A stretch of 64,000 nucleotides of DNA from Flavobacterium gawalongense (GTDB taxonomy: Bacteria; Bacteroidota; Bacteroidia; Flavobacteriales; Flavobacteriaceae): contig NZ_VJZP01000009.1 of assembly GCF_007097265.1 (NCBI RefSeq), forward strand, positions 1 to 64,000. Reading direction: 5' to 3'. Under the pieces are notes generated by a model that saw only the letters and a program-made list of their open reading frames with translations, made no database searches and was not told the origin of the DNA. Both the position numbers and the translations under genes were made by a program. Shown here in pieces: positions 1-45,863 of this stretch; the first letter of the stretch is position 1, and every line of letters starts with the position of its first letter.

Positions 1-197
1 ATTTATGCTTTATAAATGTACAAACGACGAAAATTGTATTCGAAATGATTTTAGTCCGCATTACGGATAGTCATAAATTTTTTTATTGAATTTCATTTGG
101 CTAACATGGATCAGTTGATAGGTTTGTTATAATTACTTGTTTTTTTTAAAGCATTAAAAATCAGTATGTTAATTGTGAGTTAAACTGCTCTTTTAGA

Positions 198-228
198 TTT
201 GTTTGAAATAGAATTCGCCTTATCTTTG
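198..228 (+). promoter_or_regulatory. Promoter of sRNA copy 1
   Basis: TTTG at 198-201, a 19-nt spacer, then TATCTTTG at 221-228. This matches the Bacteroidetes primary sigma-factor consensus (TTTG near -33, TANNTTTG near -7). Transcription should begin near 234. Confidence 0.8.
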
Positions 229-233
229 AGTAT

Positions 234-366
234 GGTTTTGGTTTGTTCTTGAGTATGGCCATCTGCAAAGAGTAGCGTATTTGATAGTTAGTTGTATCGA
301 AAGGTATAACTGATAATAACAAACCAAAGTCTGAATCGGAGGCCCTTTAAAAAGGCCTCCTTTTTT
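234..366 (+). ncRNA. Small structured RNA, copy 1 of 4
   Basis: The predicted transcript is about 133 nt. Bases 234-247 pair with 318-331 to form a 14-bp closing stem (two wobble pairs). Bases 291-298 and 303-310 form an 8-bp hairpin capped by a GAAA tetraloop. A short CTGC/GTAG hairpin may form in the left arm at 264-276. The 3' end is an intrinsic terminator, GGAGGCC (338-344) with GGCCTCC (354-360) and a T-run at 361-366. Size, own promoter, closing stem and tandem multiplicity make a flavobacterial 6S-type RNA (6S-Flavo, formerly the Flavo-1 motif) the leading family guess. That is inference; I could not compare it with the covariance model. Confidence 0.8.
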
Positions 367-547
367 GTGGTTATTTCTCCAGTATGGACTTTTTAAAAAT
401 TTGATTTTTTGAAAATAATTACCATAAATCTTTTTATTAGATTTTACTTGGCTAACATAGATCAGTTGATGCGTTTTAGTATAGGTATTGCTTTTTAAAG
501 CATTAAAAATAAATATGTTAATTACGAGTTAAAGTGCTATATTAGAA

Positions 548-577
548 TTGTTTGAAATAGAATTCTCCGTATCTTTG
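548..577 (+). promoter_or_regulatory. Promoter of sRNA copy 2
   Basis: TTG at 548-550, 19-nt spacer, TATCTTTG at 570-577: same architecture and spacing as copy 1. Confidence 0.8.
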
Positions 578-582
578 AGTAT

Positions 583-715
583 GATTTTGGTTTGTTCTTG
601 AGTATGGCCATCTGCAAAGAGTAGCGTATTTGATAGTTAGTTGTATCGAAAGATATAAGCTGATAATAATAAACCAAAGTCTAAATCGGAGGTCTGTAAA
701 AAGACCTCCTTTTTT
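583..715 (+). ncRNA. Small structured RNA, copy 2 of 4
   Basis: Close to copy 1, with changes that preserve pairing. The terminator stem is GGAGGTCT (688-695) with AGACCTCC (702-709) instead of GGAGGCC/GGCCTCC, a compensatory change on both arms. The second base of the closing stem turns a G-U pair into A-U, and the GAAA hairpin turns U-G into U-A. T-run at 710-715. The pattern shows selection for RNA structure rather than a recent identical duplication. Confidence 0.8.
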
Positions 716-895
716 ATGGTTATTTCTCAAGTATAGTCTTTTTAAAATTTGATATTTTCAAAATAATTACCATGAATCCTTTATTGAATTTCATTGGACT
801 AACCTGCATTAGTTGGTAAATTTGTTGTAATTTCTACTTTTTTTAAAATATTAAAAATCAACATGTTAATTGCGAGTTAAAGTATATAATTAGAG

Positions 896-925
896 TTGTT
901 TGGAATGAAATTCACCTTATCTTTG
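896..925 (+). promoter_or_regulatory. Promoter of sRNA copy 3
   Basis: TTG at 896-898, 19-nt spacer, TATCTTTG at 918-925. Confidence 0.8.
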
Positions 926-930
926 AGTAT

Positions 931-1064
931 GATTTTGCTTTGTTCTTGAGTATGGCCATCTGCAAAGAGTAGCGTATTTGATAGTTAGTTGTATCGAAAG
1001 GTATAAGCTGATAATGACAAACCAAGGTCTGAATTGGAGGCCCTTTAAAAAGGCCTCCTTTTTT
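931..1064 (+). ncRNA. Small structured RNA, copy 3 of 4
   Basis: Near-identical core to copies 1 and 2 (the segment from GAGTATGGCC through the GAAA hairpin is shared). The closing stem keeps 13 of 14 pairs with one C-C mismatch. The terminator is GGAGGCC (1036-1042) with GGCCTCC (1052-1058) and a T-run at 1059-1064. Confidence 0.8.
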
Positions 1065-1243
1065 AGGACTAGATGCCAAAATATTAGTTTTTTTATTTTG
1101 CTTTTTTTCTAATATAATTGTATTAGAAACCTCTTTTATTAAAATTTACTAAACTAATTTTAGCGGGTAATACTGTCTTAATAACTGTGGTTTTAGTTTT
1201 ATAAAATGACTCGTTAACGATTAGTTAAAAATCTGATTTATAG

Positions 1244-1273
1244 TTGTTATGGTGGAATTAAATTGTATCTTTG
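1244..1273 (+). promoter_or_regulatory. Promoter of sRNA copy 4
   Basis: TTG at 1244-1246, 19-nt spacer, TATCTTTG at 1266-1273. The spacing is unchanged although the transcribed region has diverged. Confidence 0.75.
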
Positions 1274-1278
1274 AGTGT

Positions 1279-1417
1279 GATTTTGATTAATTACTTGATA
1301 TATCAACCTTACAATAAGATATGATAATTCAATAGTCAGCTATACAAGTTAAAGTATAAGTTAGATAATGGTAAATCAGAATCAACAATTGGAGGACCGT
1401 AAAGGTCCTCCTTTTTT
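1279..1417 (+). ncRNA. Small structured RNA, divergent copy 4
   Basis: The primary sequence differs widely from copies 1-3 but the fold is kept. Bases 1279-1288 pair with 1374-1383 (10 bp, one wobble) using different bases from the closing stem of the other copies. An ATATC/GATAT stem replaces the left-arm hairpin, and TATAC/GTATA replaces the GAAA hairpin. The terminator is GGAGGACC (1391-1398) with GGTCCTCC (1404-1411) and a T-run at 1412-1417, a third compensatory version of the stem. It ends 12 bp before the stop codon of the convergent downstream gene. Confidence 0.7.
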
Positions 1418-1429
1418 GTTGTAAACTTT

Positions 1430-3122: not shown

Positions 3123-5504
3123 ATGGTTAAGAAAAAATACATTCGACTTTCTATTACTTTGAAATTATTGTTTCTCATGTTGTTTTTCACAAATACTTAT
3201 TCACAATATGTATTTAGGAGTGATGCGATTCCTGAAAAAATTTCTTTACACAACTATACTACAATTACGGATGTTGGCCAAAGAAATTATAATTTTCAAT
3301 TTGTAATTGAAAATTATAATTCATTGAGCCCTAAAAAGCTTAAAACTGAAAATGATGATTTAGGCTTTACTCAAAATAATTTTTGGACCAAAACGGAACT
3401 TAAAAACCCTACAGATTTATCCTTAAAATATTACTTAGAGACTGCTAGACCAATTACAGATTTGGTAGAATTATATATTGTTGATGTAGCTTCAAGAAAA
3501 ATCACCAAAACTGTTAGTGGTGATAATATGCCGTATTATGAACGTAGTTTTGATAATCGAAAAACCATTTTTAAAATTGAAATAGCACCAAAATCCAGCT
3601 TGAAATTGTTTTTGCATCTAAAAAGTGATGGTGAAGTACTAAAAATGCCAATAAAACTGTATTCATCTGAAAGTTTTATAAGAATGCTTTCAAAGGAGCA
3701 ATTGATTTATGGAATTTTCTATGGAATTTTGGTTATTGTAGCGATAATTTACTTCTTTTTCTTTTTTGGTTTACGCGATAAAACATTTTTGTATTATAGC
3801 TTATATGTTGTTTTTGTTGGTTTATTGCAATTTTCTTTAGATGGTTTTTTCTTTCAGATCGTTACACCTCATGGCGGCTGGTTTTCAAATCATGCGGTGT
3901 TGTTTTTTGCGATAATTGCAGCTTTTTTATCTGGGAAATACAGTGAAGTGTTTTTGAAAATAAAACAACACAGCAAAATATTTTATGCGCTGTTTAACAC
4001 TAGTTATGCATTACTGTTTGTTTTATTATTTTGCGCAATACTTTTTCCTTCTGCTTTGTTGTTTTGCTATATGATGGTCAATGTGTTGGCATTGATATTT
4101 TTGATTTTGATTATTTGTTCCATTGGATACCTTTATTATAAAAAGAAGCCAATAGACTCTTTGTTTATTATTGGAATTTTCTTTTTAATTTTAGGATTTG
4201 GAGTCTTTATTCTGAATAACTTCGGTCAGGTTCCTAATAATTTTTTAACTGAAAATAGTTCTAAATTGGGTACTGGTTTAGAGATTATTTTTCTTTCTCT
4301 TTCGATGTCAAATTTAATTCGAAATCTTAAAAATGAAAAAAATGAACTGAATCGTCTTGCTTTAGTTCGTTCGGAAGAAATGAATGATTTAAAATCTTAT
4401 TTTTTATCGAATATTAGTCATGAATTAAGAACACCTTTGAATGCAATTATGAATATGATTGATTCTATTTCTGTTGAGGTTCAGGATGAAAAAATCAGAA
4501 AAAATTGCCAGATTATAAAGTATTCTTCGCATAGTTTATTGAGTTCTGTCAATGATATTTTAGATTTTTCTAAAATTGAAAAAGGAGAATTAAGGCTGGA
4601 AAATGAGCAATTTGATCCGGTACAGGTTTTGGAGCATTTGAAGAATAATGCAATCAATATCGCTAAAGATAAAGGATTAGAATTTCAGTTTTCAAAATCA
4701 GATACTATTCCTGATTTTTTAATTGGAGATGTGACCCGATTGGTACAGGTGGTGAACAACGTATTGAATAATGCCATTAAATTTACAGCCATCGGTTTTG
4801 TGAAATTTACTATCGATAGCGAGTTGAAACCTAACAATAAAGCCAGTCTGATTTTGACTGTTTCGGATTCTGGTATAGGAATTTCCAAAGATAAAATGGA
4901 CAGTATTTTTGATTCTTTCTCTCAAAATAATATCGATAATAAGCGAAAATTTGGCGGACTTGGATTAGGACTTTACATCGTTAAGACTTTGGTCGATATG
5001 CAAAACGGAACTATTGTAATGGATAGTATAATCAATGAAGGAACCAGCTGCGTTATTACAATAGATTTTGATATCTCGCCAGAAAAGAAAAAGACGGAAG
5101 TTCCGGTTAAAACTGTTATTGAAGATTTACAAGGGAAATCCCTTTTAGTAGTTGAAGACAATCCGATCAATCAAATGGTCATAAAAATGATCACCAAAAA
5201 ATGGCTAAATACGACTGTTGTTTATGCCGGCAATGGTCAGGAAGCATTGGAAGCATTTAAAATAAATCAATTTGATATTGTATTAATGGATCTTCAAATG
5301 CCAGTTATGGATGGCTATGAAGCCACGATCGCAATTAGAAATGGTGAAGCAGGAGCAGATAACAGCAATATTCCAATCATTGCGGTAACCGCTGACGTGA
5401 TGGAAACCACAAAGCAGCGTGTTAAGGAAATAGGAATGAATGATTATTTGTCTAAACCAATTAAGAAAGAAACCTTATATGAGGCAGTTAAAAGGTTAAT
5501 TTAA
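3123..5504 (+). CDS. 7TMR-DISM hybrid sensor histidine kinase with C-terminal receiver
   Basis: 793 aa from the ATG at 3123. An in-frame GTG at 3093 would add ten residues ahead of what looks like the natural signal sequence, so I prefer the ATG. Order of domains: signal peptide; a periplasmic 7TMR-DISM extracellular domain (about 30-190); seven membrane helices (about 200-395); HisKA with the phospho-accepting H433 in SHELRTPLN; HATPase_c with NNAIKFT, DSGIGI and GGLGLGL; and a receiver with phospho-acceptor D723 in MDLQMP. It senses an unknown, possibly carbohydrate-type, ligand at the inner membrane. No response-regulator output gene is adjacent. Its stop overlaps the stop of the convergent NYN gene by 4 bp. 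Confidence 0.9.
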   Translation: MVKKKYIRLSITLKLLFLMLFFTNTYSQYVFRSDAIPEKISLHNYTTITDVGQRNYNFQFVIENYNSLSPKKLKTENDDLGFTQNNFWTKTELKNPTDLSLKYYLETARPITDLVELYIVDVASRKITKTVSGDNMPYYERSFDNRKTIFKIEIAPKSSLKLFLHLKSDGEVLKMPIKLYSSESFIRMLSKEQLIYGIFYGILVIVAIIYFFFFFGLRDKTFLYYSLYVVFVGLLQFSLDGFFFQIVTPHGGWFSNHAVLFFAIIAAFLSGKYSEVFLKIKQHSKIFYALFNTSYALLFVLLFCAILFPSALLFCYMMVNVLALIFLILIICSIGYLYYKKKPIDSLFIIGIFFLILGFGVFILNNFGQVPNNFLTENSSKLGTGLEIIFLSLSMSNLIRNLKNEKNELNRLALVRSEEMNDLKSYFLSNISHELRTPLNAIMNMIDSISVEVQDEKIRKNCQIIKYSSHSLLSSVNDILDFSKIEKGELRLENEQFDPVQVLEHLKNNAINIAKDKGLEFQFSKSDTIPDFLIGDVTRLVQVVNNVLNNAIKFTAIGFVKFTIDSELKPNNKASLILTVSDSGIGISKDKMDSIFDSFSQNNIDNKRKFGGLGLGLYIVKTLVDMQNGTIVMDSIINEGTSCVITIDFDISPEKKKTEVPVKTVIEDLQGKSLLVVEDNPINQMVIKMITKKWLNTTVVYAGNGQEALEAFKINQFDIVLMDLQMPVMDGYEATIAIRNGEAGADNSNIPIIAVTADVMETTKQRVKEIGMNDYLSKPIKKETLYEAVKRLI

Positions 5505-6265
5505 CTGTAACGCAATCGAACATAAACGTGTTTAATTCCTTTTTTATCCGAATCTCTTTCATCGATTTCAAGAATATCAGTAAGAGATTTAAGCATAGGA
5601 GTTAATTTTGCAAAGCCATAATTTCTTGGGTCGAATTCAGGTTTTTTCTTCACAATGAGGTTTCCTACATCTCCAAGAAAAGCCCAGCCACTGTCATCAG
5701 CAATGTCTTCGATGGTTGATTCTATCAATTCGATGGTTTGTACATCGACTTTGTTTAAGCTTTTAGGTGTTGCTTTTTTTGCATCTGAGGCAGTTCTTTT
5801 TGGTAATTTCTTTTTAATGGCGCCATCCAAAACTTCAATATAAATAAATCTATCGCAGGCAACAATAAATGAATTGGGCGTTTTTTGTTCTCCAATTCCA
5901 ATGACTTTCATTCCGGATTCTCTCAGTCGGATTGCTAAACGTGTAAAATCAGAATCACTGGAAACAATACAAAAACCATCTACTTTATCCGAATACAATA
6001 GATCCATGGCGTCAATAATCATCGCTGAATCCGAAGAATTTTTACCCACCGTGTAACTGTATTGTTGAATAGGAGTAATGGCATGTTCCAATAAAACACT
6101 TTTCCAACCTCCGGCATTTGGTTTGGTCCAATCGGCATAAATACGTTTGGTTGTTGGTGTTCCAAATTTGGCTATTTCTTCCATCATTCCTTTCACATTA
6201 CTGTAAGGAACATTGTCAGCATCAATGAGAACGGCCAATTTTAATTCTTTTGTATCTTGTGACAT
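5501..6265 (-). CDS. NYN-domain (LabA/DUF88-type) protein with C-terminal OST-HTH/LOTUS-like region
   Basis: 254 aa. The N-terminal ~150 residues are a NYN (PIN-like) nuclease fold with the acidic residues expected for metal binding: D15 and D17 in LIDADN, the SDSAMIID segment and VSSDSDF. The C-terminal part (about 175-250: DDSGWAFLGDVG, KPEFDPRNYGF) resembles an OST-HTH/LOTUS RNA-binding domain. By family it is probably a ribonuclease or RNA-binding protein in the cytoplasm; the substrate is unknown. It stands alone and is convergent with the kinase gene. Confidence 0.85.
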   Translation of the reverse strand: MSQDTKELKLAVLIDADNVPYSNVKGMMEEIAKFGTPTTKRIYADWTKPNAGGWKSVLLEHAITPIQQYSYTVGKNSSDSAMIIDAMDLLYSDKVDGFCIVSSDSDFTRLAIRLRESGMKVIGIGEQKTPNSFIVACDRFIYIEVLDGAIKKKLPKRTASDAKKATPKSLNKVDVQTIELIESTIEDIADDSGWAFLGDVGNLIVKKKPEFDPRNYGFAKLTPMLKSLTDILEIDERDSDKKGIKHVYVRLRYS

Positions 6266-6325
6266 AAATTTCTAATGTTGAAATATTTATTCAAATATAC
6301 AAAGTTTATTCCTGAATACGCTTTT

Positions 6326-6407
6326 TAGCCCTGATCGAAACGGCATCCTTTTGTGCCGATTTTTCTTCGGCACAAAAGATACAGTGTAGAGCAGGAAATA
6401 GCTCCTC
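6326..6407 (+). repeat. Interspersed repeat with variable hairpin, copy A
   Basis: Conserved left flank TAGCCCTGAT..GCATCC, then a 12-bp hairpin CTTTTGTGCCGA / TCGGCACAAAAG (6348-6378), then GATACAG..GGAAATAGCTCC. The same flanks surround a completely different hairpin at 45707-45811 on the other strand. It is followed by TTCGACTTCGCTCAGGATGAC, another short sequence I associate with intergenic repeats of this phylum. Confidence 0.7.
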
Positions 6408-45706: not shown

Positions 45707-45811
45707 GGAGCTATTTCCCGCTATCCGTTACAATCTTTCTAGTCCTGAATTTGTTTCAGGATCCTGAAACAAATTCAGGACTAGAAAGGATTTTCACTGC
45801 TATCGGGGCTA
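45707..45811 (-). repeat. Interspersed repeat with variable hairpin, copy B
   Basis: Read on the minus strand: TAGCCCCGAT..AATCC, a giant hairpin, then GATTGTAACGGATAG and GGAAATAGCTCC. The flanks match copy A (6326-6407) but the hairpin is unrelated and much longer. The upstream part of this serC-serA gap (about 45652-45675) holds another short repeat, CATTGCGAGGAACGAAGCAA. Confidence 0.75.
45735..45788. repeat. Perfect 54-bp palindrome within repeat copy B
   Basis: 27-bp arms centred on GGATCC at 45759-45764 (CTTTCTAGTCCTGAATTTGT.. and exact complement), zero loop. Likely forms a cruciform or RNA hairpin in the serC-serA spacer. Confidence 0.9.
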
Positions 45812-45863
45812 GGATTCCCAGTAAATCTAATTTATATGTTTTTAAACTGAAAACTGCGACTGA

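Follow-up and report, generated by a model that had tools for sequence, protein, structure and literature searches.

By analogy, the closest counterpart in logic to the locus described here is LhrC1-5 of Listeria monocytogenes, a multicopy small RNA (sRNA) all five copies of which need one two-component system, LisRK, and for which additive action of the copies was inferred (PMC4132741). RsmX, as presented in the same source, is also multicopy and stands under a two-component system (PMC4132741). In Bacteroides thetaiotaomicron, of the same phylum, FopS/GibS likewise belong to many paralogous, terminator-ended sRNAs; the seed of FopS was placed near the 5′ end, and FopS sites are intergenic in nine cases, antisense in four and in a 3′UTR in one (PMC11697453), whereas the copies considered here are tandem. 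One transcriptome study of Flavobacterium sRNAs (PMC9723704) was found in the open-licence literature, and no paper on an array of this kind was found among the matches listed there. The array RNA probably serves in regulation, its dose depending on the number of copies. It departs from LhrC in several respects: LhrC is controlled by LisRK, whereas an activator of the array is suggested by a promoter repeat; LhrC binds Hfq without requiring it, whereas the genome carrying the array has no Hfq match; and LhrC relies on redundant CU-rich target motifs (PMC4132741), whereas the array RNA has variable loops and a conserved closing stem. The array also has no match to an Rfam family at gathering level.

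The array occupies positions 168-1417 of the window, the 64-kb stretch of DNA that was analysed, which forms the start of contig C86. Four units of ~350 bp, all on the + strand and spaced by 348-349 bp, each comprise a structured RNA of ~133 nt, preceded by a -7 box of the Bacteroidetes type and ending in an intrinsic terminator. The features are listed below, with bit scores from model R2 (see below):

1..75, + strand: right end of a MITE-like repeat of ~220 bp (repeat matches in the genome; coincides with the contig end)
168..184, + strand: unit 1 direct repeat, GTTAA-N6-GTTAAA (sequence pattern, also family-wide)
221..228, + strand: unit 1 -7 box, TATCTTTG (sequence pattern; TAnnTTT in 146/149 family upstream regions)
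234..366, + strand: unit 1 RNA, middle-copy type "B", inferred start (R2 match 229-367, 117.0 bits; fold; covariation)
517..533, + strand: unit 2 direct repeat (sequence pattern)
570..577, + strand: unit 2 -7 box (sequence pattern)
583..715, + strand: unit 2 RNA, type B, inferred start (R2 match 578-716, 127.4 bits; fold z -7.5)
865..881, + strand: unit 3 direct repeat (sequence pattern)
918..925, + strand: unit 3 -7 box (sequence pattern)
931..1064, + strand: unit 3 RNA, type B, inferred start (R2 match 926-1065, 113.6 bits; fold z -3.7)
1213..1229, + strand: unit 4 direct repeat (sequence pattern)
1266..1273, + strand: unit 4 -7 box (sequence pattern)
1279..1417, + strand: unit 4 RNA, "last-copy" type, inferred start (R2 match 1274-1418, 121.2 bits)

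An earlier, sequence-only reading had given every copy its own promoter and terminator, and a -7 box and a T-run hairpin are indeed present in 4/4 units. The pattern TTG-N19-TATCTTTG was found at 199-228, 548-577, 896-925 and 1244-1273, with no fifth copy on either strand of the 64 kb; the starts 548, 896 and 1244 had been given correctly, whereas the first had been placed at 198. Within these matches TATCTTTG starts at 221, 570, 918 and 1266, once per unit. The units end at 366, 715, 1064 and 1417 in a GC-rich stem followed by a T run, the 3′ end of the RNA bodies being a GGAGG...CCTCC hairpin plus T run; the terminators and the 348-349 bp period that had been claimed are both seen in the sequence, and a simple terminator scan picks up two of the four. 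The direct repeat upstream of every unit was absent from the earlier description. The units had also been said to share one orientation and to code for no protein, and the lack of any ORF of ≥60 aa on the + strand of the array indicates that they are probably non-coding; one 62-aa ORF lies on the - strand (542-730). A small conserved reading frame starting from a 5′ RTG was considered and was rejected on inspection, because conservation would then be highest at third codon positions.

Folding of the four unit RNAs gave structures that each beat 200/200 shuffles (z = -5.2, -7.5, -3.7 and -4.7 for units 1-4), that of unit 1 being a three-way junction plus terminator. Model R1 was built from an alignment of 22 copies from seven regions, and model R2 from 150 matches from 69 loci, its alignment holding 150 of the 151 matches. 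The common fold consists, in order, of an AU-rich closing stem (P1), the hairpins P2 and P3 of the three-way junction, and the terminator. In the 150-row alignment 93.5% of cells are paired, a value as high as which was reached by 0/500 shuffles, and slid structures, used as a control, gave 34.6-58.5%. Covariance analysis, named earlier as a possible refutation of the stems, supports them: changes on both sides occur in 24/30 pairs among the 150 sequences, where fitting of the alignment to the model biases these counts toward it, and in 9/30 pairs of the unfitted 22-sequence alignment. Among helix strands, conservation is highest in the 5′ strand of P1, whose mean majority is 0.91; its 3′ strand reaches 0.84, and unpaired columns 0.70. 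This asymmetry is modest, entropy being lower on the 5′ strand at 10/14 pairs. The hairpin loops vary across the family. Beyond the four units, R2 gave 10 further weak matches in the window (E 0.001 to 0.7), which were set aside as chance or mirror matches, four of them lying on the - strand over unit terminators.

RNA bodies of units 1-3 are 92-96% identical, their promoters 79-87% and their upstream spacers 57-77%, while the body of unit 4 is 53-56% identical to those of units 1-3, which is consistent with selection acting on the RNA. The spacer likeness among units 1-3 had been noticed before and is borne out by these values. The description of four tandem copies is true of the window and falls short for the genome (G000), which carries at least seven: contig C24 holds three more RNA copies, reading toward the contig end. 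Positions 1-75 of the window have 29 strong matches in the genome, their own one counted, and at 9/12 inspected places the left end of the element lies 216-217 bp away; the same left end is seen at the end of C24 (positions 1-70). Because of these element ends and the similar spacers, the simplest reading would join C24 to C86 in a single seven-copy array, split by a ~220-bp element that also breaks the assembly.

Comparison across species suggests how the array was formed. A midpoint-rooted tree of 96 copies mostly places first, penultimate and last copies beside those of like position in other species, and it clusters middle copies by species in several genomes, with exceptions and weakly supported nodes. 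Unit 4 clusters with the last copies of other species' arrays. Tandem duplication of the whole transcription unit, as had been proposed, is supported; unit 4 is an older paralogue type common to several species and no recent copy of units 1-3. An order test drew on 27 arrays of at least two copies (the multi-copy loci L210, L230, L238, L245, L249, L259 and L262 were left out, and the G000 parts on C24 and in the window were treated as one array through numbering only). For 82/100 copies the closest foreign copy belongs to the same position class, without correction for relatedness, compared with a mean of 42.6 and a maximum of 60 in 2000 shuffles; the other 18/100 break the order. The closest copy lies in the own genome for 22/46 middle copies versus 5/54 end copies. 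The position grouping and the own-genome relatives of middle copies thus indicate an old, ordered array with an independently expanding middle.

R2 matches were found in 83/299 sampled genomes of the genus, the own genome included, and R1 matches in 82/299. No R2 match was obtained in 216/299 sampled genomes, so the genus does not carry the RNA universally. Searches beyond 40 genomes used stricter filters, and the best 10 candidates per genome (R1 and R2 in the genus, R2 in the family) or the best 16 (R1 in the family) were scored, so that 83/299 is a lower bound. Copy number among the 83 carriers ranges from 1 to 8, with two or more copies in 35; F. urumqiense has eight (L083) and F. psychrolimnae four (L142). 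Such a natural series of ordered paralogues offers a way to ask why a bacterium keeps many copies of one sRNA, for dose or for division of labour, and also makes testable how sRNAs of Bacteroidota work without Hfq. R1 gave 0 matches in 198 family genomes besides the own one, and R2 gave three weak matches in 298, all in other genera and judged false, since they rest largely on the terminator. The family was thus convincingly found in no other genus of the sampled Flavobacteriaceae. One BLAST match (G020) was discarded because it lies inside a protein gene.

The neighbourhood was compared in 69 loci which, being hand-picked from the listed matches, are not a random sample. Neighbour domains were assigned with Pfam, and the gene names rdgB and kbl are putative. 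The gene that we take to be rdgB adjoins the RNAs in 50/69 loci; the typical order is a DEAD-box helicase gene and rdgB, both pointing away, the RNAs, and then a downstream set of a glutamate-synthase-like gene and/or a 7TMR-DISM hybrid histidine kinase gene, an NYN-LOTUS gene and a kbl-like aminotransferase gene. Three of the 19 loci without rdgB lie at contig ends (L001, L216, L230). Among the 16 inspected, an upstream gene that is presumably rmuC-like occurs in five, a presumed maleate-isomerase-like gene in six, and a presumed copper-ATPase-like gene downstream in three, L264 having the latter plus the rmuC-like gene; L210, L215 and L221 have none of these neighbours. In 26 genus genomes chosen as match-less (19 from the genus searches, G083 from the family searches and six absent from the match list), no R2 match with E <0.05 was found within ~1.5 kb of rdgB, the best being 0.065. 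A protein with NYN and OST-HTH/LOTUS domains, a putative RNA-binding nuclease, is encoded at 5501-6265 (-) of the window and in 27/69 fetched loci.

Upstream sequence sufficient for promoter analysis was available for 149 of the 151 matches. GTTAA-N6-GTTAA is exact in 103/149, carries one mismatch in 20 and is found in neither form in 26; it lies 52-54 bp ahead of TAnnTTT in 109/149, and TAnnTTT itself is present in 146/149. Among 77 non-redundant copies, chosen because their repeat lies at distance 53, half-site conservation is 88-100% and the canonical -33 TTTG is not conserved, although the four units of the window do have TTG-N19. In the own genome the repeat followed by TANNTTTG at a distance of 28-48 occurs eight times, seven of these being array copies, compared with 0 in the reversed control; all 7/7 own-genome copies share the promoter site. 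On its own, the repeat shows no enrichment in this genome (19 matches versus 23 in the reversed control) and therefore points to no regulon or regulator. Twelve repeat sites outside the array have no common theme, four being one repeated sequence at contig ends, and the combined pattern in named genomes falls at many unrelated genes (among 80 listed of at least 117 stretches). A possible connection with an RprX/RprY-type system was weighed and set aside. OmpR/PhoB-type regulators characteristically use 11-bp direct repeats at such a distance, and the activator of the array promoters would most likely be a response regulator of this type. GTTAA-N6-GTTAAA and TATCTTTG, with a constant total length of 64, also precede genes in named Flavobacterium and Myroides contigs (L077, L108, L116, L134, L137) that we take to encode PadR-like regulators; the spacing there differs from that of the sRNA promoters. 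In Chitinophaga (L105, L107, L110, L120, L139, L147), GTTAAAACTACGTTAAA and TATCTTTG occur with a constant total length of 69 at a gene that is presumably undecaprenyl-diphosphate-synthase-like.

We give slightly better than an even chance to the reading, drawn from sequence comparison, in which the array produces an activator-controlled, Hfq-independent, multicopy regulatory sRNA that acts in trans and whose copy number sets the dose. One activator binding the direct repeat would turn on all copies together under one condition, RNA level would be proportional to copy number, and the RNAs would act in trans without Hfq, of which no match was found in the own genome by a search that detects Hfq in 5/14 well-known genomes. 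The 5′-terminal region, that is the 5′ strand of P1, would most likely pair with mRNAs, and the older paralogue types may target partly different ones. Hairpin loops are the usual seeds of sRNAs, and their variability in this family counts against the pairing reading. The conserved P1 5′ strand could be a 5′ seed, as in FopS, or part of a protein-binding stem; FopS has a single-stranded 5′ stretch and a terminator hairpin (PMC11697453), whereas the 5′ end of the array RNA lies in the long stem that closes the three-way junction. With the conserved segment sequestered in a stem, a protein-binding RNA is suited equally, and an RNA that titrates or scaffolds a protein, in the logic (not the sequence) of CsrB/RsmX, is the less probable yet serious competitor: the protein would read the junction together with its conserved closing stem, and the amount sequestered would be set by copy number. 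The P1 sequence is the most conserved one although many other AU pairs could form the stem, the loops vary, and many copies share one promoter site, RsmX likewise being multicopy and under a two-component system; the conservation of P1 is, however, somewhat one-stranded, as would be expected of a pairing strand more than of a duplex ligand, and the partner protein is purely hypothetical. Pairing was rated about twice as likely as titration. A tentative extension, which we consider rather doubtful, sees an ordered ancient array in which end paralogues are kept for separate roles, the central type is amplified as a dosage rheostat, and a protein replacing Hfq reads the closing stem; if true, the central type would have been amplified independently and repeatedly in single species. 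That the array is a non-functional repeat, made of decaying duplicates or mobile sequence, is hardly credible: it is tandem, variable in number and has a mobile-like element inside it, but the stems covary, the RNA bodies of units 1-3 are more conserved than the spacers, and the promoter box is held at a fixed distance, and the copy order conserved, across species.

Two further proposals concern the identity of the RNA. Membership in the family of Rfp18 of F. psychrophilum, which would make the array RNAs partly known and is compatible with the other readings, is possible and on balance doubtful. By its description, Rfp18 is a strongly structured sRNA widely conserved in the genus, as the array RNA is a structured, genus-conserved one, and it is required to keep the mRNAs of two metalloproteases at their normal levels (PMC9723704). 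Multiple copies are not mentioned in the parts of that paper drawn on here, which thus describe no multicopy RNA, and "rdgB" is absent from its main text (PMC9723704); moreover, a widely conserved RNA sits poorly with R2 matches in 83/299 genus genomes. The sequence-only reading had favoured a 6S-type RNA, which would bind RNA polymerase, under the label "6S-Flavo, formerly Flavo-1". That label conflates two Rfam families, RF01685 (6S-Flavo) and RF01705 (Flavo-1); both, like the array RNA, are present in the genome, and neither model matches the array, their matches lying elsewhere. Size and a long closing stem speak for a 6S-type RNA, nothing more, and we regard it as very improbable. The Rfam search of the units for 6S-Flavo, proposed there as a check, was run and gave no match, and the 13 low-scoring Rfam matches with E values of 10 or less at positions 1-1500 of the window are unrelated and do not include 6S-Flavo. 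The own genome has a separate 6S-Flavo match (C7:29351-29459, E 8.8e-14), whose 80.8 bits fall short of the 85-bit cut-off, as do 60/61 genus genomes overall, this one among them, with one match each; 16 of those, G000 not included, have matches above the family cut-off. The three-way junction fold of the array RNA also argues against it. The alternative allowed by the same reading, a new family, fares better: the array has no Rfam 15 match at gathering level, and its conserved fold could be modelled as R1/R2. In a large environmental genus, these models add a covariation-supported RNA family that is unmatched in Rfam 15 across the window and 15 related loci. Flavo-1 membership of the array was rejected, as the RF01705 matches in the window fall at 6323-6402 (+) and 45710-45814 (-) alone. 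In the 15 related loci Flavo-1 was the sole Rfam family found, with seven matches; in L263 one of them (3366-3443, -) abuts an R1 match (3442-3575, -), with two positions in common, and the remaining six are apart from R1 matches. The two Flavo-1 matches of the window lie outside the listed genes and have similar ends (AGCCC... / ...GGAAATAGCTCC) around different hairpins; in appearance, a dispersed inverted-repeat element describes them as well as an RNA gene does.
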